Shown: piece after piece, positions 48,986-64,000 of the stretch
Layout: every line of letters begins with the position of its first letter
How positions within the stretch are numbered: position 1 is the first letter of the stretch
Source of the DNA: Planctomycetota bacterium
GTDB lineage: Bacteria; Planctomycetota; Planctomycetia; Pirellulales; Pirellulaceae
DNA length: 64,000 nucleotides
Direction of reading: 5' to 3'
Assembly (NCBI GenBank): GCA_024276655.1
Contig: JAJRWU010000141.1
Span: forward strand, 1-64,000
The notes under the pieces: model-generated
Seen by the model: the letters and a program-made list of their open reading frames with translations, nothing else
Databases searched by the model: none
What the model was told of the DNA's origin: nothing
Translations under genes and position numbers: made by a program

Positions 48986-50101
48986 ATGCCGCAAGCCATA
49001 CACGTCGAACTGAGTTGCCCCATGCAAGAGAGTTTTCGCGTGCAGCAGGTTGTCGGCATGTTCGGCCTGGAAACCGGCTCGCTTCCCGAAACCGTATTCG
49101 ACGTCGAGCTGCCCGACGCCAAGGAAGATTGGAGCATCGGCGCCATTGTGGGTCCTTCGGGAAGCGGGAAGTCGACCATCGCCCACGCCGCGTTCGGCGA
49201 GGCGGTTTATCGATCACGAACTTGGCGCGACGACGTCGCCGTGGTCGACGACATCGGCGGTCGTTCCGTGAAGCAGGCCGTCAAGATTCTCACCGCCGTC
49301 GGCTTTGGCAGTCCTCCCGCCTGGCTGCGGCCGTATCGTACGCTCTCCGGCGGCGAACAATTTCGTTGCGATTTGGCGCGAGCCTTGTTGGAAAACCCGC
49401 CGCTATTGGCGTTTGACGAATTCACCAGCGTGGTGGACCGAACCGTGGCGCAAATTGCCTCGGCGGCTTTGGCCAAGGCGGTGCGGAAAAGAGACGTCTG
49501 TAAAAAATTTGTCGCCGTGACCTGCCATTACGATGTGCTTCCTTGGCTCGAGCCGGATTGGGTTCTCGATATGGCCCAACAACGGCTCGACTGGAGGCGG
49601 CTTCGGCGACCGCAGCTCCGGCTTCGCGTTTCCCGATGCAAACAAACAATGTGGCGAATGTTTGCCCGGCATCATTATCTGAGCAGCAGCTTGCCTCGCT
49701 CGGCAACCTGCTTCGTGGCTTGCCGCGGCGGCCAGCCGGTCGCCTTTTGCGCCACGGCGGGCATGTACGGCGTGAAGGGGCGCAAGCGGATCAGTCGGAT
49801 CGTCACCTTGCCGGATTACCAAGGTTTGGGAATCGGCGTTCGTCTGACGGAGCGCGTCGCCGATTACGAAGCCGCCCGGGGTTTTGGCGTGCATCTGACC
49901 GCCAGCCATCCGGCCATCATCGGCTATTGCCGCAACTCGAAACGCTGGCGCACGGCGCATGTGGCGAAGTGCGGCCATCGTGGCGAACAGTGGTTCGGAA
50001 AAATCAAAGTGAAGAACTCAGCGGGTCGGAGCGTGGTCTCGTTTGCTTATCAGGGCGCAGCGGCGCCGAATGCGGAACATTGCGGTAACAGTGTGTGTTG
50101 A
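48986..50101 (+). CDS. ABC-type ATPase fused to an acetyltransferase-like domain
   Basis: 371 residues. The N-terminal ABC ATPase has Walker A GPSGSGKST at 56-64, signature LSGGEQFRCDLARALL from 120, and Walker B LLAFDEF at 140-146, with a switch His in VTCHYD. From about 215 a GNAT-like domain follows (MFARHHYLSSSLP; VAFCATAGMYGVKGRKRISR; LPDYQGLGIGVRLTERV, the acetyl-CoA loop). This is the architecture of COG2401. There are no membrane segments, so it is not a transporter. It is placed between the ParB-like gene and terminase, as in several phages; a DNA-processing or modifying role is likely but unproven. Confidence 0.82.
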   Translation: MPQAIHVELSCPMQESFRVQQVVGMFGLETGSLPETVFDVELPDAKEDWSIGAIVGPSGSGKSTIAHAAFGEAVYRSRTWRDDVAVVDDIGGRSVKQAVKILTAVGFGSPPAWLRPYRTLSGGEQFRCDLARALLENPPLLAFDEFTSVVDRTVAQIASAALAKAVRKRDVCKKFVAVTCHYDVLPWLEPDWVLDMAQQRLDWRRLRRPQLRLRVSRCKQTMWRMFARHHYLSSSLPRSATCFVACRGGQPVAFCATAGMYGVKGRKRISRIVTLPDYQGLGIGVRLTERVADYEAARGFGVHLTASHPAIIGYCRNSKRWRTAHVAKCGHRGEQWFGKIKVKNSAGRSVVSFAYQGAAAPNAEHCGNSVC

Positions 50102-50115
50102 ACCTGGAACAAACC

Positions 50116-50703
50116 ATGTCTACAGCAAACGGCAAGGCGAAACCGCCCCGCGAGAAACACCACGCAGCGCCGTCGGAACAACAGTTGGCGTTTCATCATG
50201 ACGCCGCGTTGGGAAAATCGGCGGCCGAAATTGCTCGCAGTCGCGGTGTGTCGGTCAGCCTGGTGGAAGAGGGGCTGGAATGTGTCGAAGCCTCGATATT
50301 GAAAGACTACACCGCCGATTCTCAACGAGGCCTGATTCGCCAGACCGAGCTTCTGAATTGGATTTGTCGCGAGTCGTTGCGGGCCTGGGAGGCCAGCCAA
50401 CAGCCGCAAGAATCGACCAAGGTCAGCACCGACGGCTCAGGACCTGAGAGTAAAACAAAAGCCGAACGCACCACGCGCCAACAGCCCGGCGACCCTCGGT
50501 ATCTTTCTCACGCCATGGCGGCAATGGCGGCTGTTCGCCGCATCTGGGGATTGGACGAACCGCAGCCGGCGTCGGCCGCGCCGCACAGCGACAAGGTAAG
50601 AGTGCTCGAAGATGAAGACTGGTACGGAAACAGCGCGCATGGTTTGTCTGCCCAAGCCGCTGCCGCATCAGATTCCGATCTTGAAGTCGTCGGCTCGACA
50701 TAA
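50116..50703 (+). CDS. Terminase small subunit-like protein
   Basis: 195 residues from the ATG at 50116. The N-terminal half has an HTH-like segment, GKSAAEIARSRGVSVSLVEE, suited to recognising packaging sites. The second half is low complexity with a helical stretch HAMAAMAAVRRIWGL. Its 3' end overlaps the large terminase gene by 92 bases in another frame. The assignment rests on the HTH and the position just before TerL. Confidence 0.65.
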   Translation: MSTANGKAKPPREKHHAAPSEQQLAFHHDAALGKSAAEIARSRGVSVSLVEEGLECVEASILKDYTADSQRGLIRQTELLNWICRESLRAWEASQQPQESTKVSTDGSGPESKTKAERTTRQQPGDPRYLSHAMAAMAAVRRIWGLDEPQPASAAPHSDKVRVLEDEDWYGNSAHGLSAQAAAASDSDLEVVGST

Positions 50704-51889
50704 AATCGCCTCCTGTGGACGCCGTTGGGGAAAGACGGCCATGGGTTTAATGGCCGCGCTTCGCGGGCATGGCGCGTATCGCGGCGAACGCCGGGGCGCG
50801 ATCGACGGCGCCAATATTTGGTGGGTGGCGCCCACGTATGGCGTGGGCGCGAAAATTTGGAGAGATTTGAAAAAAGCCTGTCACGCCGGGTGGTCGGGGA
50901 AATGGGAGAGCGATCGTCGGATCGAACTTCCTGGCGGCGGCTGCATTGTTGTCAAATCGGCCGACGCGCCCGCCGCACTGCGCGGCGAAGGTTTAGACGG
51001 CCTGATCGTCGATGAAGCGGCCTACATGCGAGAGAGCGTCTGGCGCGACGCCCTCCGCCCGGCGCTTTCCGACGCCCAAGGTTGGACGATCTTCACCAGC
51101 ACGCCCAACGGACGCAACTGGTTCTACAAACTCTTTGAAGCAGCCCAAGAAGAAAACGAATGGCAACGCTGGCAACTACCCACCAACCAAAACCCACTCG
51201 TTCCAGGGAACGAGTTTGCGGCGGCCCGCCGGGAAATGGGCGCGCGAGCCTTTGCTCAGGAATACCTCGCCCGGTTTGTCGAGACGCAAGGCGCGGAATT
51301 CAGCGGCGCCTATTTTCACCAAGACATTTGGTTCGACCACTGGCCGCCCGACAACAGGATTCGCTGGCGCGTGATGGCGCTCGATCCTTCCAAGGGCGGA
51401 ACCGAACGCAGCGACTACTCCGCCTTCGTAATGGTGGCGCTCGACGACAACGGCGTGATGTGGGTCGACGCCGACCTCAAACGACGCGACCCAGTGCAGA
51501 TCGTCGCCGATGGTTTGCGACTGGCTCACTGGTTCCAGCCCGACGCCTTCGGTGTGGAGGTGAATCAATACCACGGGATTCTCGCCGGTATTTTCGCCGA
51601 GCGCTCCAAGACCGAGGGAATGATGTTGCCGCTGCATGGCATTCGCAACCATGAAAACAAAGTCACGCGAATTCGCGCCACGCTGACGCCCTATTTGGCT
51701 AGAGGCGAATTCCGATTTCAAGCCGGTTCGCCTGGAGCAAAACTGCTCGTGGAACAACTGGCCGCGTTCCCGCTCGATAAACACGACGATGGCCCCGACG
51801 CACTCGAAATGGCTGTCCGGCTGCTGCGGCATGTTTTCGAATTTGGACCAAACGCTCACCACTATTCCGTGGAAAGGATTTACACCTGA
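50612..51889 (+). CDS. Phage terminase large subunit
   Basis: 425 residues: the ATP-driven DNA-packaging motor. Walker A CGRRWGKT at 35-42, Walker B with catalytic Glu in GLIVDEAAYM, a coupling motif in WTIFTSTPNG, then the RNase H-like nuclease domain whose first metal Asp is in VMALDPSKGGTERSDYSA and whose last is in HDDGPDALEMAV. All elements of a working terminase are present. Its last base is the first of the portal start codon. Confidence 0.92.
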   Translation: MKTGTETARMVCLPKPLPHQIPILKSSARHKIASCGRRWGKTAMGLMAALRGHGAYRGERRGAIDGANIWWVAPTYGVGAKIWRDLKKACHAGWSGKWESDRRIELPGGGCIVVKSADAPAALRGEGLDGLIVDEAAYMRESVWRDALRPALSDAQGWTIFTSTPNGRNWFYKLFEAAQEENEWQRWQLPTNQNPLVPGNEFAAARREMGARAFAQEYLARFVETQGAEFSGAYFHQDIWFDHWPPDNRIRWRVMALDPSKGGTERSDYSAFVMVALDDNGVMWVDADLKRRDPVQIVADGLRLAHWFQPDAFGVEVNQYHGILAGIFAERSKTEGMMLPLHGIRNHENKVTRIRATLTPYLARGEFRFQAGSPGAKLLVEQLAAFPLDKHDDGPDALEMAVRLLRHVFEFGPNAHHYSVERIYT

Positions 51890-53376
51890 TGCCAACTTCA
51901 GGACGTCCTCTCGATAAGCCCGCCGAGACAGACATTCACCTCTCCGCCGCCCGCATGGAAAGCATTTTGGAAGCCTGGGGCGATTTGATCGATCCTCTCG
52001 AATATTTGCGCGACGACCCCGATTTCGGCTACGGCGAGCCGGTGGTTAGTCGGCGGGGTGATCGCGCCGGCGGCGCCAATCGTCCTTTCCTGCAGAACGA
52101 ATCCGACCTAGCCATGATGCGCGCCGCCGGCCGATTATTGGTCGAGACGAGTCCAGCCGCCATCGGCGTGGTGCGCTGCCTGGGGAACTACGTGATCGGT
52201 TCGGGGTTCTCCTACAAAGCGGCGCAGCGCACGTCGGATTTGCAAGCACAACGCGCCGCCAGCGTGGCTCAAGAGGTGATCGACGAGTTTCTCGACGACA
52301 ACGATTGGGTGGGAGATTTAGAACGAGAACTGTTCCTCCGCTCGCGCCGCGATGGCGAGTATTTTCTCACGCTGAACGCCGACGAAGCAGGCCGCACCCA
52401 TGCCCGCTTGATCGAACCGGAGCAGATCACGGAGCCCGACAACCGCCGCGCTCTCGACGACTGGCTGCAAATCGAGGAGCCCACAAGCTGGACGTTAGGC
52501 ATCCATACTGCGGAGTCGGATGTTGAACGGCGGCTCGGTTATTTCGTCAAATGGAACGCTTCGGGAACCGATTGGGATTATTTGCCGGCCGCCGGCGTGG
52601 AGCACGCCAAGTTGAACGTCGACCGCAACATCAAACGCGGCGTGTCCGACTTTTACGCCGTGCGGCAACACCTGGAAGACGCCGAGAAACTTTTGCGAAA
52701 CACGCGCCGCGGTGCGGCGGTGCAAGCCGCGATTGCTTTCATTCGCGAGCATGCGCCGGGCGTCGCGCCGGCGCAAATTTCGACGCTCCGCGCCACCGAA
52801 GCCGAAGCAACCTACAACGAACCGTCGTTCAACGGCGCGCGCCGCCGCTACATTCAAAAGTACGAGCCCGGCACGATTATTGACGTCGGCAAGGGGCAGC
52901 AGTACAAACCGGGTCCGCTGGGGGCGTCGCACGGTCCTAACTTTATTGCGATCGAGCAAGCAACTTTGCGCATGGCCGGCGTTCGTTGGTGCATGCCGGA
53001 ATACATGATCAGCGGCGATGCCAGCAACAACAACCATGCCAGCATCCTGGAGGCCGGAGCGCCCTTCACTCGTAATGCGGAGGCGGAGCAGGCATTCTAT
53101 GTGCGGCGGTTCCAACGCATTATTTGGAAAGTGCTGGCGAACGCGCAGCGCGCCGGCCGGTTTCAAGGCGTAGACCCCAAAAGCAAACACATCGGCGAAT
53201 TACGGCGTCTGCTGCGTGTGAATATCGAACCGCCGTCGGTGGCGGTGCGCGACCGCCATCAGGAAACGCTGCGGCGAAAAATGCTGTTCGACGCCGGCGT
53301 GCTTTCGGCGCGCACTTGGGCGGCGCAGGAGTCGCTCGATTACGACAAGGAACAGCGGCACGCCGAACTGCGGTAG
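51889..53376 (+). CDS. Phage portal protein
   Basis: 495 residues following TerL directly. Landmarks of portal proteins are ..LVETSPAAIGVVRCLGNYVIGSGF, EFLDDNDWVGDLERELFLR, THARLIEPEQI, RGVSDFYAVRQHLEDAEKLL and GVRWCMPEYMISGDASNNNH. Portals form the dodecameric ring through which DNA enters the head. Length is typical and the gene looks intact. Confidence 0.87.
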   Translation: MPTSGRPLDKPAETDIHLSAARMESILEAWGDLIDPLEYLRDDPDFGYGEPVVSRRGDRAGGANRPFLQNESDLAMMRAAGRLLVETSPAAIGVVRCLGNYVIGSGFSYKAAQRTSDLQAQRAASVAQEVIDEFLDDNDWVGDLERELFLRSRRDGEYFLTLNADEAGRTHARLIEPEQITEPDNRRALDDWLQIEEPTSWTLGIHTAESDVERRLGYFVKWNASGTDWDYLPAAGVEHAKLNVDRNIKRGVSDFYAVRQHLEDAEKLLRNTRRGAAVQAAIAFIREHAPGVAPAQISTLRATEAEATYNEPSFNGARRRYIQKYEPGTIIDVGKGQQYKPGPLGASHGPNFIAIEQATLRMAGVRWCMPEYMISGDASNNNHASILEAGAPFTRNAEAEQAFYVRRFQRIIWKVLANAQRAGRFQGVDPKSKHIGELRRLLRVNIEPPSVAVRDRHQETLRRKMLFDAGVLSARTWAAQESLDYDKEQRHAELR

Positions 53377-55236: not shown

Positions 55237-55345
55237 CGATTCTTTCCTTGCGACCGCGCGCAGCAAAAATCGTCGTCGCCATTTGAGTGGCGAAACACAT
55301 CCTTTCCACACGCAACCCCAGCTAATATCGAGGAGCATTTTCTCC

Positions 55346-56494
55346 ATGCCACGTGCAATTAACTACGATTCGGTGAAACGTTTTTACGAGATCGATCCGC
55401 TGCGCACCTGCGACGATCTGTTGGAAGGCATCGAACAACGCCATCTGCGAGCGGAGGAGTTCTCGCTGCGGCAGTTGTTTGAATCGCTGGTTCCCAATGG
55501 CGGCGAACTGATCCGAACGTTGGATCCTCGGCAACCCGGCGGCGTCAACTTGTTGGAAGCCGGCGGCGCGGTTGATATGTCGGCCTTTTCCAATATTACC
55601 GGGCAGATCGTGTACTCCAAGGTGTTGGAGGCGTTTGAAGACCCGGCCTTCCTTTGGCCGCACTTGGTGTCTTCCACGCCCACGCCGTTCAACGGTGAAA
55701 AGATCGCGGGCATCGGTCGGTTGGGCGATGAGGCGGAATCGATTGCCGAAGCGCAGCCGTATCCTCTGGCGGGGCTCAGCGAAGAGTATGTGGAAACTCC
55801 CAAGACAACCAAAACCGGCATGATCGTGCCGATCACGAAGGAGGCCATCTTCTTCGATCAAACCGGAACCATTCTCAGCCGAGCGGCGGAGGTTGCGCGG
55901 TGGCTGGGAGTGCGGAAGGAAAAACGCGTGTTGGATGTCGTCTTGGGCGTTACCAATACGTACAAACGCAACGGCACCACGACCAACACCTACCTGGCTT
56001 CGGGCGCGTATGTGAACCTCAAGGCCGCCAATGGCCTGACCGATTGGACGAACGTCGAGGGCGCGGAACTGTTGTTCGATGCGATGTCCGATCCCAACAC
56101 CGGCGAGCCGATTGCCGTCAAGGCCGATGCGTTGATCGTGCCCACGGCGCTGAAACACACGGCCCGCCGCATTTTGCGCGCGGAGTTTGTCGAACAGGTC
56201 GACAACCAGGCCAATGCCGATACCGTGCGCACCACTTCGGGAAATCCGTTACCGCCTTACAGTGTGTTGTCGAGTCCTTATGTCAAGCAGCGCACCGGCA
56301 GCGACACCACCTGGTTCTTTGGGCAGCCGAGGAAAGCGTTTGCGTACATGGAAAACTGGCCGATCACGGTGGTGCAGGCGCCCAGCAACAGCGAAGCGGA
56401 ATTCACGCAAGACATCGTGATGCGCTACAAGGTGAGCGAACGCGGCGCCGTGGCGGTTGTGGAGCCTCGCGGCATGGTGAAGTCAACCGCCTAG
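55346..56494 (+). CDS. Major capsid protein
   Basis: 382 residues from the ATG at 55346 with GAGGAG 10 bases upstream. The sequence has an N-arm (MPRAINYDSVKRFYEIDPLR), then EEYVETPKTTKTGMIVPITKEAIFFDQ, and a P-domain-like segment (RTTSGNPLPPYSVLSSPYV; WFFGQPRKAFAYMENWPITV). An HK97-like fold is expected from size and gene order after protease and before connector genes. Fold assignment is inference. Confidence 0.8.
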   Translation: MPRAINYDSVKRFYEIDPLRTCDDLLEGIEQRHLRAEEFSLRQLFESLVPNGGELIRTLDPRQPGGVNLLEAGGAVDMSAFSNITGQIVYSKVLEAFEDPAFLWPHLVSSTPTPFNGEKIAGIGRLGDEAESIAEAQPYPLAGLSEEYVETPKTTKTGMIVPITKEAIFFDQTGTILSRAAEVARWLGVRKEKRVLDVVLGVTNTYKRNGTTTNTYLASGAYVNLKAANGLTDWTNVEGAELLFDAMSDPNTGEPIAVKADALIVPTALKHTARRILRAEFVEQVDNQANADTVRTTSGNPLPPYSVLSSPYVKQRTGSDTTWFFGQPRKAFAYMENWPITVVQAPSNSEAEFTQDIVMRYKVSERGAVAVVEPRGMVKSTA

Positions 56495-58025: not shown

Positions 58026-58910
58026 ATGGGTAGTCCTTCAATGGGGCACGCCGCGCAACTGGGTTTGGGCGCTGCTTCTCCGGTGGATGAGGCGTATGAA
58101 TTTGTAGCTTGCGATGTCGGCAAAACGGCCACGCACGTGCAGACCGAAGGCATTCGAGGAACGCGGTCGAGAATCGCGGAGACCGTCGTCGAGGGAACCT
58201 ACTCCGTCGGCGGAAGCATTCTGATGCGGCCCACGCCCGACGAGATCGACAAACTCCTGCCAAGAATTTTGGGCGGCGCCGAATCGCTCGACACCTTCCC
58301 GTTGGCGGAAACGCTGCCGGAGTTTTTTTTGACCGTCGACAAAGTGGCCAAGGTCTACACTTACGCCGGTTGCAAGGTGGCCCGGGCTTCATTTCGCAGC
58401 GCCGCCGGCGCCGACTTGGAGCTGTCGCTCGAAGTCGAAGGAAAAACGGAAGCCGAAGCGGCGGCGGGATCCTTTCCTTCAGGACTGGCGCTGTCGGCCG
58501 CGCAGCCGTACGTGCATCATCAGGCGGTCCTCACCTTGGGAGGAACGTCGTACGAAATGGATAACGTTGAAATCGTGATCGACAACCAGTTGATCACCAA
58601 TCGTTATTTCAACTCGCAAACACGCACCGCCCTGCCGGAAGGCGACCGCACCATTACCGTGAGCTGCGATCTGCCCTTTAGCAGCACCGAAACATCGCTC
58701 TACGACATGGCGATTGCCGGCGTGACGGGCAGCGTGGTGTTCACCAACGGCGGTAAATCGTTGACGTTCACGTTCGCCAATTTGAAGGCGCCGGCGCTGC
58801 CGCTTGGCGTAAGAGGCCGCAACCAAGAAATTCCGCTGCGTTTGGAAATGACCGCCTACAAAAGCGGAATCACCGATGAGCTGGTCGTTGTTAACGATGT
58901 TACGGCGTAA
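58026..58910 (+). CDS. Phage tail tube protein
   Basis: 294 residues; GAGAGGAT is upstream of the ATG. A two-fold beta pattern is visible: YEFVACDVGKTATHVQTEGI, RPTPDEIDKLLPRILGG, YAGCKVARASFRSAAGADLE, and TLGGTSYEMDNVEIVIDNQL. The second half ends ..GRNQEIPLRLEMTAYKSGIT. This is the usual shape of long-tail tube proteins. It is followed, after two other genes, by the tail-assembly chaperone and tape measure. Confidence 0.75.
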   Translation: MGSPSMGHAAQLGLGAASPVDEAYEFVACDVGKTATHVQTEGIRGTRSRIAETVVEGTYSVGGSILMRPTPDEIDKLLPRILGGAESLDTFPLAETLPEFFLTVDKVAKVYTYAGCKVARASFRSAAGADLELSLEVEGKTEAEAAAGSFPSGLALSAAQPYVHHQAVLTLGGTSYEMDNVEIVIDNQLITNRYFNSQTRTALPEGDRTITVSCDLPFSSTETSLYDMAIAGVTGSVVFTNGGKSLTFTFANLKAPALPLGVRGRNQEIPLRLEMTAYKSGITDELVVVNDVTA

Positions 58911-59506: not shown

Positions 59507-60157
59507 ATGGCGCTGATGCTGTTGATTGACCCTGCCTTTCGCCAAACGCACGTCGAATACCTGTTCGACAAGGCGCCGTATGGATGCGCCTTGCTGGCGC
59601 TCGATGGCCGTTGGCTGAAGGTCAACGCCGCGCTCACCCAGATCGTGGGATACACGGAGTCGGAACTGTTGGAGCGCACGTTCCAAAGCATGACGCATCC
59701 TGACGACGTAGCGCCGGAAGTCGAAATGCTGGGAAAACTCCAACGCAGCGCCTTGCCCGCCGACTTTTTTCAAATGTACAAACGTTTCATTCACAAACTT
59801 TCGGGGCGCTCCATTCCCATCGTGCTGACAGCGCGGCCCGTGCGAAACGAGCAAGGCTTGGCCATGCACTACCTCTCCGTCATTCAAACCTTGCCCAACG
59901 AAACCTTTGGACCGGCCAGAATGTCGGCCGACGCGGCCATCGAACTGCGTCCCATCACGACGCCGGCGGAGTTTGTGCGTCGGCATTGGAAGTGGCTCTT
60001 GGGTGGAATAGCGACGCTCGTAATCGCGGCGGCGCCGGCGTTCTGGACGGCGGGGCGTTACCTCGTGGCAAGCCATTATGAACAACAGAAATTGAAACAC
60101 ATGGTGCTGGAGTTGCGGCAAACATTGGTGGAATTGCAATCGCAACCATCTGATTAA
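59507..60157 (+). CDS. PAS-domain protein with C-terminal membrane anchor, inside the tail module
   Basis: 216 residues; AGAGG precedes the ATG. Residues 15-130 form a PAS fold: LFDKAPYGCALLALDGRWLK, ALTQIVGYTESELLERTFQS, and THPDDVAPEVEM..., then MYKRFIHKLSGRSIPIVLTA. A linker leads to a membrane helix (WLLGGIATLVIAAAPAFWTA) and a short coiled coil (ASHYEQQKLKHMVLELRQTL). No kinase or other output domain is present. A PAS membrane protein between tail tube and tail chaperone is not a usual phage gene; it may sense or anchor the particle at the host membrane. Confidence 0.7.
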   Translation: MALMLLIDPAFRQTHVEYLFDKAPYGCALLALDGRWLKVNAALTQIVGYTESELLERTFQSMTHPDDVAPEVEMLGKLQRSALPADFFQMYKRFIHKLSGRSIPIVLTARPVRNEQGLAMHYLSVIQTLPNETFGPARMSADAAIELRPITTPAEFVRRHWKWLLGGIATLVIAAAPAFWTAGRYLVASHYEQQKLKHMVLELRQTLVELQSQPSD

Positions 60158-60216
60158 CCCACTCGCTTACGAAACGAAATCAACCTTACCTCTTCCCACG
60201 GGAGCATGAGCAAAAC

Positions 60217-60639
60217 ATGGTGGATCTCATCCGAGATGGCTACACGCAAGAGGGTTACATCGCCGCCGCCGAGCGGTTGCACGGCGAGCTGTCGTTTTCA
60301 TTTCGGCCGATGCTGGTCGATCAGCGCGACGCCCTGCTGGAACTGTTGGAGAAAAAGCCGGCGCGGGAGCGCAGCCGGTACATCGCCTTGCAGCTTGTCA
60401 AGCAGGTTCAAGAGTGGGACGCCCAGGAGCCGGGCGGCGCCTGCGTTCCGTTGGATGTGTCGCATTTGAAAATGCTGCCGCCGAACCTGTTCAATATCGT
60501 GGCGGGCTATGTCGCCTCCGACGCCAAGCCGGGCCAAGAACCGGAAAACGCGGCCGACGATTACGAAGCGGAGTTGGAAGCGTTGGCAGCCGGCGCCAGT
60601 CTGGGAGAAAGCAAGGAGAGGCGTGCGGAAAAAAACTAA
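60217..60639 (+). CDS. Tail-assembly chaperone, G-type product
   Basis: 140 residues. VDLIRDGYTQEGYIAAAERL, then LSFSFRPMLVDQRDALLELL, and ..LKMLPPNLFNIVAGYVAS, then an acidic tail. The pattern (DGYT..GYI....LHG.L.F.FRPML) and the position between tail tube and tape measure fit the tail-assembly chaperone of long-tailed phages. The last codons read GAA AAA AAC TAA, placing a canonical A AAA AAC slippery heptamer directly before the stop. The frame entered by -1 slippage is exactly that of the next ORF, as in lambda G/GT. Confidence 0.75.
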   Translation: MVDLIRDGYTQEGYIAAAERLHGELSFSFRPMLVDQRDALLELLEKKPARERSRYIALQLVKQVQEWDAQEPGGACVPLDVSHLKMLPPNLFNIVAGYVASDAKPGQEPENAADDYEAELEALAAGASLGESKERRAEKN

Positions 60640-60680
60640 GGCGGGGCGCCTCCCTGTTGTTGTTCCATCCTGGGGTGGCG
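60613..60680 (+). promoter_or_regulatory. Programmed -1 frameshift site of the tail chaperone
   Basis: The slippery heptamer A AAA AAC occupies 60630-60636 in the correct phase. An internal AAGGAG (60613-60618) lies 11 bases upstream, the distance at which a Shine-Dalgarno-like element stimulates -1 slippage. The zero-frame stop TAA is the next codon (60637). Downstream, a stem CGCCTCCC (60647-60654) with GGGGTGGCG (60672-60680) is possible, as is a short AGGCG-GGG-CGCCT hairpin (60639-60651). Slippage leads into CTA AGG CGG and on to the stop at 61037. Confidence 0.75.
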
Positions 60681-61037
60681 AGCATCCGCTGTAAGGACTG
60701 CCAAAAGTACGATTACAATTTCCAGACCGGCCGCCGCAAGAAGTTCGCCCAAGGAACGCAAGATCGGCTGCGGGTCGTGCCGCCGCCGTGCGAGCGTAAA
60801 CAGGGATGCCCCAAGGGCGGCCCCGAAGAAGAGCGGAGTTGTGAATTGACCGACGCCAATTACGCCACGCTGATGCTGTTCATGGCCAACGAATCGATGG
60901 CCGGAGGATGTTTGACCGAATACGAGCGAGCCGATTCCCTGGTCCGCCGACATTTCGCGATTTTGGCTTCGGTCTATCAGGAGTGGCGGCGGCGGCGGGA
61001 AGCCGACGCACTGGCCGCGGCAATGTTGGGGAGATAA
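60675..61037 (+). CDS. T-type extension of the tail-assembly chaperone (reached by -1 frameshift)
   Basis: From the -1 frame at 60636 the sequence is open to 61037, giving a GT-like fusion of about 273 residues; the GTG at 60675 is the first plausible independent start but has no ribosome site. Contents: SIRCKDCQKYDYNFQTGRRK, then VVPPPCERKQGCPKGG, a four-cysteine zinc-knuckle pattern, and a helical C-terminus (DSLVRRHFAILASVYQEWRR). In lambda the T domain recruits tail subunits while G coats the tape measure. The call rests on frame, position and slippery site. Confidence 0.7.
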   Translation: MASIRCKDCQKYDYNFQTGRRKKFAQGTQDRLRVVPPPCERKQGCPKGGPEEERSCELTDANYATLMLFMANESMAGGCLTEYERADSLVRRHFAILASVYQEWRRRREADALAAAMLGR

Positions 61038-61041
61038 AACA

Positions 61042-62985
61042 ATGAGCAACCATCCTACTGATATTACGGTCAATGTCTCGATGCAGCTCGATCAGTCGGT
61101 GACGGTCGTGTTTGCCGATATTAACAAGCGCGTGGCCGAGCAGCAGCGGAAAATGACCGCCGCCTACACCAAGGGTTTTGCCGACCTGGCCAAGCAACAA
61201 AAGCGTTCCGCCGACGCCGCCATCAAACTCAACAAGAGCGTGGCCGATTTCAAAATCGCGGCCGACAAACGCGCCGCCAATGAAGCCGCCAAGGCGGCGG
61301 AAAAAGAGTCGCAGAGAAAGACGGCGCTCATCGCCAAGGAGGCGCAAGAGCGTCGCGATGCGATCCAAAAGTCCGTGCGAGAGCACGAACAGGCGTTGGC
61401 GAAACAGGCGGCGGCTAACAGGGCGGTGACCGATGGTCTGGTCCAGGCGAGCGAGAGCGTCGTCAAACTAAGCCGAGGTTTCGCGGCGTTGGGAGTCGTC
61501 AGCGATGAAAACGCCAAAAAGATCCTGGAAGTGACGAATCAGGTGGAAGCCGCCATTGAAGTCGCGAAGGGCGCGATTGGCGTCTATCGCGGAGTTGCGG
61601 GCGCTGTTGCCGCGTATCGCACCAGCGTGGCTGCCGCAGCCGCGGCGGAGAAAGCGTTGGGGAAGGCAAGAGCGGCAACGGCGGCGGCGGGCGGAGTTGG
61701 CAAGGTGATAGGCGGCGTTTCCGGCGCGGCGGGATTGGCGGGCGGCGCGGCAGGCGCAACGGGCCTTGCGAGCGCTGCCGCCGCCGCCGCCCCGATTGCC
61801 GCAGTGATTGCCGGCCTTGCCGCGCTGGCGGCGGCGATTGTTTTGGCGACGGAGTCCATTACGGGGGCCACTGGTCCAGGTTCGGCGTCGAATGCGGTTG
61901 GCGGTTTTTTGGCGAGAACGTCGACATCGCTCGACAGAAACACGCGCGGCGGCTTTGGAGGAGTACTGGCCGACACAGCGTTGAAGACCGTCGTTCCCCT
62001 CGGGGGACTGTTACCGAACGGGAGTGCGAACCGGTTGCTTCGCGCCACCGGCATGTCGGCCGCCGATTCGGAGATTGCCGCCGAGAAGCGAGCCAAAAAG
62101 GCGGCCCGGGAGAGAGAGAAAAATATCCGCATTGACCGCCTTGGCCGGTCGGAGCTAGGCGCCACGCGGCAGCGCATCGCGATTCGTGATTCCGCCGAGC
62201 AAGGCGTGTTGCAAGTGAATGACACCAAACAGGCGCAACTCGACCGGAGCGACGCCCGTTTGAGCCAAGTCCAGCAGGACCGCGCGGGATTTCGCGGCGT
62301 GGAACAAGGCGCGAAAACCGATGGACTTAAAAATGAAGCGCGTCAGGACATCATCAAGACACTTGAAAAAGAACGCGGGATCATCAGTCAGCAGTTTAAT
62401 CTCGTCAAGCAAATCAGCGCCGAGAAAATCGCCGGCGTACAGCGGGCGATTGCCGGGGAGCAGCAGCAGCTTGAAATATCGCAGCAGCGCATCGACCAAC
62501 TGAAGGAGAGCTTGCGTTCTGGCGCGCAACGGTTTGCGAGGGCGTCGAAAGAGGACCGCGAAGATGCGATCGAAATCCAACGTAAGCTGCTTAACAATGA
62601 GTACGTTAACGCCGAAGGCCGAACCAAGGCCGAGCGTTTCGGCTTGTCTAATACTTTCGAGGCAACAGCTAAACTTGACCAAGCCGATGCCAAAGAGTAT
62701 GGCTATTTTGATAATTTCGGTGGCGCGGAGCAACGTCGGTTAGAAGACGAAAGGCGGAAACAAGAGGCAATCAAAGCATCAATCGAAGTGAACCAAAAGA
62801 TTGAGGTTGATGTAAAAATTGACACCGAGGAAGTTCTTACACAACTAGCCGAAGCCACGGATAAAGCCCTCAAAGAGCAGGCGACCCTACTAAAGGCGGA
62901 CTTGCAGGGAACGCTCGACAAGATGCAAGGCGACAACAACAACGGCAATGAGGCGCGCGAGCGAGGATTCAGTCATCCGCTATGA
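61042..62985 (+). CDS. Tape-measure-like tail protein
   Basis: 647 residues, four bases after the chaperone. The N-terminus is a long helical region (ADINKRVAEQQRKMTAAYTK; LNKSVADFKIAADKRAANEA). A Gly/Ala-rich hydrophobic stretch follows at about 165-275 (VIGGVSGAAGLAGGAAGATG; IAAVIAGLAALAAAIVLATE), then a charged coiled coil to the end. This helix-hydrophobic-helix plan is that of tape-measure proteins, which set tail length. At 647 residues it would suit a short long-tail. No tail-tip or baseplate genes follow. Confidence 0.78.
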   Translation: MSNHPTDITVNVSMQLDQSVTVVFADINKRVAEQQRKMTAAYTKGFADLAKQQKRSADAAIKLNKSVADFKIAADKRAANEAAKAAEKESQRKTALIAKEAQERRDAIQKSVREHEQALAKQAAANRAVTDGLVQASESVVKLSRGFAALGVVSDENAKKILEVTNQVEAAIEVAKGAIGVYRGVAGAVAAYRTSVAAAAAAEKALGKARAATAAAGGVGKVIGGVSGAAGLAGGAAGATGLASAAAAAAPIAAVIAGLAALAAAIVLATESITGATGPGSASNAVGGFLARTSTSLDRNTRGGFGGVLADTALKTVVPLGGLLPNGSANRLLRATGMSAADSEIAAEKRAKKAAREREKNIRIDRLGRSELGATRQRIAIRDSAEQGVLQVNDTKQAQLDRSDARLSQVQQDRAGFRGVEQGAKTDGLKNEARQDIIKTLEKERGIISQQFNLVKQISAEKIAGVQRAIAGEQQQLEISQQRIDQLKESLRSGAQRFARASKEDREDAIEIQRKLLNNEYVNAEGRTKAERFGLSNTFEATAKLDQADAKEYGYFDNFGGAEQRRLEDERRKQEAIKASIEVNQKIEVDVKIDTEEVLTQLAEATDKALKEQATLLKADLQGTLDKMQGDNNNGNEARERGFSHPL

Positions 62986-62993
62986 TTCGAGGG

Positions 62994-63857
62994 TTACTTT
63001 TCAACCTCTTTCATAGCGGCAACAGGATCAAACAGCACAAGAAAAAAGACCGGAAACTCTGGAGCACTGCCGACATTCGCGTAGATACAGAAGAATCCTT
63101 TAACGCGAACATTCGATCCCTTTTTCCAGCCATCTGTGGGTATTCCTCGCAGCACAAACGACGCCCCACTTACTCGATACTCTTTGTTCCGCGAAAAATA
63201 AACGACGGCAGTTTGGTCATCGTAGACATCACGCACGGTCAGATTCGTGCGATCCGTGCCGGGCGCGGGAAGCAGCCCAAGTTGGCCAATCTCAAATTGG
63301 CCGACACCGCTTTCGTTTGGAATCATGAGCATGAAGTGCTCAACTAGCGGAGACTCTTTCATCTCCCTAATCAGTTTTTCCAGTTTTTGCCTTCGACCAC
63401 GAAATGCTTTTTGGAATTCCTCCTGATTGCGTTTGATATACGCCAGCGATACGCGTACTTTGGTTGCTTGCTTCTTGACTTCCCGTTTTTCAGAACGGTC
63501 AAGCTCACGACTAGAAGACAGTTTTACCAACCTCGTCAATTCCTTTTGTAACCGGGGAGTAAGGGTGTCAGGATCGGATATCCCCAAGTGTTCCTTCGCC
63601 GGGGCATCCAACGCTGGAGCTTCAGACGCATCTTTGCTTTTGTCTTCTCCTGGAAGTCGCATTGTTTTTTCAAAGCGATCGCGCCAACGGGCCTCAATTT
63701 CATCAGCCAGCTTCGCCCTCGCGGCAAGATACATCCGTGTGATCTTGACCTTTCGTGTGATCGCAGCTTTCCGAGCGATCTCTGCCGCGTCTTGTGCGAG
63801 AGCGACGGAAGCAACGACACATAAGGCCGCAACAAGTAAAAGAAATCGACGGTTCAT
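62994..63857 (-). CDS. Exported protein of unknown function beside the phage module
   Basis: 287 residues from the ATG at 63857 (AGGA about 12 bases upstream). Signal peptide MNRRFLLLVAALCVVASVAL ends near ALAQ. A charged helical region (AAITRKVKITRMYLAARAKL; LTRLVKLSSSRELDRSEKRE) precedes a beta-rich C-terminal half (VGQFEIGQLGLLPAPGTDRT; SFVLRGIPTDGWKKGSNVRV). I know no family. It converges on the tape-measure gene with 8 bases between stops, marking the abrupt end of the phage-like block. Confidence 0.7.
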   Translation of the reverse strand: MNRRFLLLVAALCVVASVALAQDAAEIARKAAITRKVKITRMYLAARAKLADEIEARWRDRFEKTMRLPGEDKSKDASEAPALDAPAKEHLGISDPDTLTPRLQKELTRLVKLSSSRELDRSEKREVKKQATKVRVSLAYIKRNQEEFQKAFRGRRQKLEKLIREMKESPLVEHFMLMIPNESGVGQFEIGQLGLLPAPGTDRTNLTVRDVYDDQTAVVYFSRNKEYRVSGASFVLRGIPTDGWKKGSNVRVKGFFCIYANVGSAPEFPVFFLVLFDPVAAMKEVEK

Positions 63858-64000
63858 GGCTCTAATTCCTGAAAATACGTTGTTCTTCACCCGAGCATTA
63901 TGGCGTCGCAATAACCAGAACGCAACTGCATAATGCACGGCGCCGCTGAATGAGGCGTCCACAGAATCGCAAGAACGCAATGCGATCAAAAATTCGGTCC

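Follow-up and report, generated by a model that had tools for sequence, protein, structure and literature searches.

A phage-like module in planctomycete DNA, two overlapping frames

The window (the whole 64,000-nt stretch analysed, positions 1 to 64,000 of contig JAJRWU010000141.1 of a Planctomycetota bacterium) carries two overlapping chaperone ORFs between a tail tube gene and the tape measure position, raising the question of whether these are two genes or a single gene read through a programmed −1 ribosomal frameshift, as in the G/GT system of phage lambda. The surrounding module, encoded on the plus strand, consists of a large terminase (50612–51889; PF03237), a portal (51889–53376; PF05136), a major capsid protein (55283–56494; PF25209), a tail tube protein (58026–58910; PF18906 Phage_tube_2, E=1.9e-22) and a candidate tape measure protein of 647 aa (61042–62985), which was assigned from its long ORF and its position. 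The window is derived from a draft assembly of 328 contigs, and its contig ends 1.6 kb past the window. The locus very probably encodes a G/GT-type tail assembly chaperone that is expressed by a −1 ribosomal frameshift, as detailed below.

The 0-frame, G-like ORF (60217–60639, plus strand) encodes 140 aa, starting with ATG at 60217 and terminating with TAA at 60637–60639; it is supported by homologues and by a predicted structure. Its terminal codons are GCG GAA AAA AAC TAA, in which the heptamer A AAA AAC (60630–60636) is in the X XXY YYZ phase and the stop codon follows immediately 3' of it. The −1 frame, which is open upstream to position 60207, provides 133 sense codons from the slip onwards (60636–61037, plus strand; stop codon at 61035–61037), and the candidate tape measure gene starts 4 nt beyond it. 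This T-like part contains four cysteine codons in a zinc-knuckle-like arrangement (60690–60692, 60699–60701, 60789–60791 and 60807–60809, spanning 60690–60809). A Shine-Dalgarno (SD)-like AAGGAG (60613–60618, plus strand) is located 11 nt 5' of the heptamer as a possible stimulator. The only start codons near the junction in the −1 frame are TTG at +20 and +23 and GTG at +38, and no SD sequence precedes any of these (60656, 60659 and 60674, respectively). An earlier, sequence-only reading of this DNA had described the gene end, the in-phase heptamer with its adjacent stop codon, the AAGGAG at this distance, an open −1 frame encoding a Cys-rich domain and a poor independent start; the gene end was correct to the base, and the other elements are likewise present, the open frame amounting to 133 sense codons and a stop codon. 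As the window contains ten copies of A AAA AAC on its plus strand, the heptamer alone is common, and its phase, position and conservation are therefore decisive.

In the proposed mechanism, most ribosomes would translate positions 60217–60636 and stop at TAA, yielding a 140-aa short form. A minority would slip by −1 at A AAA AAC, with the P-site tRNA-Lys and the A-site tRNA-Asn re-pairing to AAA AAA, and would resume at CTA to produce a 273-aa fusion (...A-E-K-N-L-R-R...) with 133 added residues, among which are the four cysteines. The short form would then coat the tape measure protein, while the long form would recruit tube subunits, by analogy with lambda G and GT.

Conservation of the frame relation and the heptamer

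Homologues were collected by searching 241 genomes of the same family with the 273-aa slipped product, followed by a search with a profile of 12 homologues against the order and the phylum, with approximately 400 genomes for each, and against IMG/VR. The profile matched members of several families as well as 20 viral contigs from IMG/VR. Removal of near-identical sites left 38 non-redundant loci from the same family, other families and IMG/VR, most of which exhibit 25–40% protein identity to the window. The C part was found in the −1 frame in every two-frame locus, including all 38 of this set. The junction heptamer is A AAA AAC in 31 loci, G GGA AAC in six and A AGA AAC in one, so that a canonical heptamer is present in 37/38 loci. 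Elsewhere in the same genes, A AAA AAC or G GGA AAC was observed at 3 of 10,650 in-phase positions, placing the in-phase junction heptamer far above chance expectation.

The base that ends the codon before the triplet was shown to track the type of heptamer regardless of the encoded amino acid, with A before AAA (GCA, GAA, CTA, GTA, CGA, TCA, TTA, CAA or AGA) and G before GGA (GAG, TCG, TTG or GTG). The first codon past the slip encodes Leu in all 38 loci (through CTA, CTG or CTC), including those in which the 0-frame continues; the 0-frame ends immediately past the heptamer in most loci and extends further in the remaining ones, usually by 4–9 codons. The distance from the site to the first Cys codon is 53 nt in 36/38 loci. 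The same junction was also identified in a viral locus (L110) with an N part below the detection level of the profile.

The seven consecutive A residues of the window bring to mind transcriptional slippage as the source of the fusion, since A-runs can cause slippage of RNA polymerase. Six homologues, however, use G GGA AAC at the same place, where the heptamer contains no run of more than three identical bases, and a conserved hairpin lies downstream at a ribosome-type spacing; we regard this explanation as highly improbable. The draft state of the window assembly suggested that the frame change might stem from a sequencing error or from a pseudogene mutation confined to one genome. This reading is refuted by independent assemblies, as the same frame relation and site were found in 38 separately assembled loci, some of them in single-contig genomes, and as purifying selection acts on the module genes of relatives; its probability is negligible.

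If the two parts were instead separate genes, the C part would be translated by termination-reinitiation or from a weak start of its own (in the window, TTG at 60656 or 60659, or GTG at 60674). Start-like codons are indeed present in most loci, among them GTG or ATG at +11 in 16/38 and a codon of this kind at +23 in 15/38, and an SD-like tetramer precedes a start-like codon in 9/38 loci. Against this, start positions vary among relatives, and five of the 38 loci contain no ATG, GTG or TTG in the stretch from 60 nt before the site up to the first Cys codon; no independent conserved start codon for the second part was thus observed among the 38 loci. Moreover, the −1 frame is conserved from the codon that immediately follows the heptamer, ahead of all candidate starts, and the +11 GTG belongs to the coding sequence of a conserved GV motif and is situated within the hairpin. 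Separate genes would also leave the alternation between A AAA AAC and G GGA AAC, the hairpin and the existence of single-frame fusions (described below) unexplained. Separate translation is accordingly considered very unlikely, its standing being only marginally better than that of transcriptional slippage.

The −1 frameshift proposed by the sequence-only reading was therefore upheld by the frame relation (38/38), the heptamer (37/38), the lack of a conserved start, the hairpin and three fusions, and the comparison that this reading had proposed, between a heptamer kept in the same phase and two genes each with a ribosome site, clearly favoured the frameshift. At the level of sequence comparison, the reading frames, the heptamer and its phase, and a predicted −1 translation from the first post-slip codon were demonstrated, as were the location between the tail tube and tape measure genes and, for most homologues, a predicted 3' hairpin. 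By comparison alone the frameshift could not be made more secure; slipping itself, by a minority of the ribosomes, is inferred from it.

RNA elements flanking the proposed slip site

To assess the downstream structure, the folding of 48 nt starting 2 nt past the heptamer was set against that of shuffled sequences that preserve the −1 frame protein and its codon use. The homologues displayed a mean z-score of −1.87, compared with +0.06 in 146 control windows further downstream in the same genes (p=3e-13, a descriptive value because related sequences are not independent, as for all hairpin p-values). The typical stem comprises 6–12 bp (GGGGTG...CACCCC) and begins approximately 8 nt past the heptamer. 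In the common stem register, 253 of 380 pairs were formed, compared with 212.6 ± 5.5 expected and at most 218 in slid registers; as the excess pairing occurs at pairs with wobble positions, the GV...HP protein motif alone is an insufficient explanation. The downstream stem put forward in the sequence-only reading thus has a conserved counterpart in homologues, whereas the window's own candidate hairpin (60647–60680, plus strand; first pair 11 nt past the heptamer) was no stronger than shuffles (z=0.1–0.3). The related stem of a sister genome, G202, folds better (z=−1.8).

Upstream of the site, most homologues contain a purine-rich stretch able to pair with the anti-SD sequence, AAGGAG itself not being strictly conserved. 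Pairing was calculated at −7.2 kcal/mol upstream of the site versus −3.9 kcal/mol elsewhere in the gene. Codon shuffles largely reproduced this pairing (mean z=−0.34), so AAGGAG was rejected as a conserved stimulator; since the stretch is mostly explained by Glu and Asp codons, an SD-like stimulator is not claimed.

Predicted structures and relationship to known families

AlphaFold models of the two parts, constructed with the window and viral homologues, attained a pLDDT of 87.6 for the N part and 92.3 for the C part. Foldseek comparison of the N model with BFVD retrieved several proteins annotated as tail assembly or tape measure chaperones, among them those of Bacillus phage Gemini and Serratia phage Scapp, with best probabilities of 0.96–0.99, at modest TM-scores (approximately 0.3–0.45) and with 11–16% sequence identity. 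The N part thus models as a tail assembly chaperone fold, its predicted similarity to the BFVD chaperones being one of fold, with no Pfam or PHROG family in common. Against the PDB, its best fold match was YqbN (3klu), which was not significant. The C part matched no fold in BFVD, and its fold can be termed unmatched with respect to this viral library. Its four cysteines are invariant among homologues and may bind a metal.

Sequence searches of Pfam, PHROGs and NCBIfam yielded no usable match above the family cut-off for either part, whether from the window or from homologues; PDB sequence searches with both parts, and tblastn with three queries against 50,697 phage records, returned nothing usable. 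When lambda G and T were aligned to the family with hhalign, probabilities of 1.5% and 0.3%, respectively, were obtained with single lambda sequences as targets. The protein family is consequently new to the libraries searched, while its kind of frameshift is already known; annotation pipelines will split or miss such a gene unless informed of the shift.

Comparison with lambda and other G/GT systems

The lambda-type G/GT frameshift was described by Levin et al. (1993) and by Xu, Hendrix and Duda (2004), as cited in PMC5009743. According to the latter source, lambda G and GT are produced at a ratio of approximately 30:1, with G binding the tape measure protein and T binding the tube protein (PMC5009743). 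The present locus and lambda have in common the gene order V-G-T-H, a G protein of 140 aa, a −1 slip close to where G ends and a T part that extends to the tape measure gene. Neither part displays detectable sequence similarity to its lambda counterpart, and the likeness is one of architecture only; the designation 'lambda-GT-like' given in the sequence-only reading is thus apt for the arrangement and not for the proteins. Features that distinguish the family from lambda are the four invariant cysteines of the T part, the conserved 3' hairpin and a 0-frame stop that usually lies directly after the heptamer. The heptamer also differs, being A AAA AAC here and G GGA AAG in lambda. The g-t genes of the haloarchaeal siphoviruses HCTV-1, -2 and -5 employ the same two heptamers as the present family; these are archaeal viruses, unlike the family described here, and this likeness is drawn from the heptamers, not from the proteins. 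With the present findings, the lambda G/GT rule would also cover a chaperone family not described before, from Planctomycetes and from uncultivated viruses, which has a four-cysteine T part, with a predicted fold unmatched in the viral library, and the conserved hairpin.

Genomic context

The order TerL-portal-protease-capsid-tube-N-C-TMP was observed in most relatives with sufficient flanking sequence. In the window, the order of tube, chaperone and tape measure genes that had been noted from the sequence holds, but the tube gene is not adjacent to the chaperone gene: a gap of approximately 1.3 kb separates them, within the tail operon, and holds a gene for a PAS-domain protein with a hydrophobic segment (59507–60157). 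Among the loci examined, this gene was common only to a sister contig from Planctomycetaceae bacterium SZUA-33, which encodes a 98% identical capsid protein, and it was not found in the tube-chaperone interval of more distant relatives.

Behind the tape measure gene, the minus strand carries a gene without a Pfam match (62994–63989), and a second, diverged tape-measure-like ORF (G000:C61, 63934–65469; 34% identity over 549 aa) crosses the window end. The capsid family of the window was found in at least 80 planctomycete loci (L113–L192), with 43–98% identity. Among the 80 capsid-relative loci, many of them short, the chaperone was detected only in L160 and L171, and the capsid was rejected as a means of finding further relatives; the 21-kb capsid loci that were inspected contain neither chaperone nor tube gene.

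Single-frame fusions, a broken heptamer and short tape-position genes

Three loci, G038a (L031), L171 and L209, encode both parts in a single frame and lack a slippery heptamer; L171 matches weakly in its N part, and the N part of L209 was identified by visual inspection only. In G038a the heptamer has been lost and the junction has one additional nucleotide, which results in DLTN-LIEG where slipping relatives have DLKN-LxEG and creates the same Asn-Leu junction as slipping. A further locus, G028b (L036/L099), retains two frames and the hairpin with the broken heptamer A AGA AAC. This broken heptamer in a two-frame homologue and the three fusions indicate that some lineages can do without the frameshift. 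The G028b genome also contains a second element with an intact heptamer.

These four loci (G038a, L171, L209 and G028b) all carry a short ORF of 169–285 aa in the tape measure position; for L171 and L209, position suggests that these ORFs are tape measure genes. Conversely, all 26 loci with a long tape-position ORF (at least 410 aa, in some cases truncated where the contig or locus ends) possess a canonical heptamer. Heptamer loss was thus associated with short ORFs (4/11 versus 0/26 loci with long ORFs; Fisher p=0.005, in a test that ignores phylogeny). Long tapes occur with the frameshift, and short tapes either with the frameshift or with a fusion; this range renders the question of what the two-form ratio is for testable by comparison.

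Tape-position genes of 170–300 aa were recorded in L031, L033, L034, L036, L037, L038, L039 and L041. Several short tape-position genes retain the N- and C-terminal motifs of long tape measure proteins and lack the hydrophobic middle.

Vertically inherited relatives resembling gene transfer agents

The chaperone was present in 4/4 genomes of genus g8 and in 5/9 genomes of genus g9, the loci concerned being G027, G028b, G029 and G030 (g8), G031, G034, G038a and G032/G033 (g9), and L213–L232. In sister species of g8 and g9, the module is flanked on both sides by host genes in the same order. Most of its structural genes exhibit dS values close to those of flanking host genes, with a pN/pS of about 0.06–0.3; faster evolution was seen in the tape-position gene and in two genes for the tail tip. 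The conserved flanks, similar dS and low pN/pS indicate a fixed chromosomal place, vertical inheritance and purifying selection, so that the g8 and g9 modules look, as judged from their genes, vertically inherited and selected, like gene transfer agents or other domesticated particles.

Phage modules that are inherited vertically and carry short tape-position genes point to possible gene transfer agents, and the g8 and g9 modules are candidate planctomycete gene transfer agents. Full-text literature searches for gene transfer agents with Planctomycetes or Pirellula-type names listed no paper on one from this phylum. The vertically inherited relatives, and not the window element, share with RcGTA a phage-derived terminase, portal, capsid and tail module and a short tape measure, a likeness based on module make-up, not on protein comparison. 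The tape measure of RcGTA amounts to approximately 216 residues, by the parts listed (PMC7296036). The window element differs from the short-tape relatives in its long tape measure.

A tentative reading, to which we would give clearly less than even weight, is that the module belongs to a vertically inherited, gene-transfer-agent-like particle in which shrinkage of the tape measure to 170–300 residues made an excess of the short chaperone form unnecessary, the frameshift having been lost several times independently and kept where tapes are long. If true, this would constitute a natural test of why phages produce two chaperone forms.

The terminase gene of G032/G033 is inverted and located far upstream. 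Just upstream of the terminase gene of the window, a gene at 48986–50101 displays ABC-ATPase-like and GNAT acetyltransferase matches; homologues of this gene (42–46%) are also located upstream of the g8 and g9 modules, representing either a shared integration neighbourhood or a part of the module.
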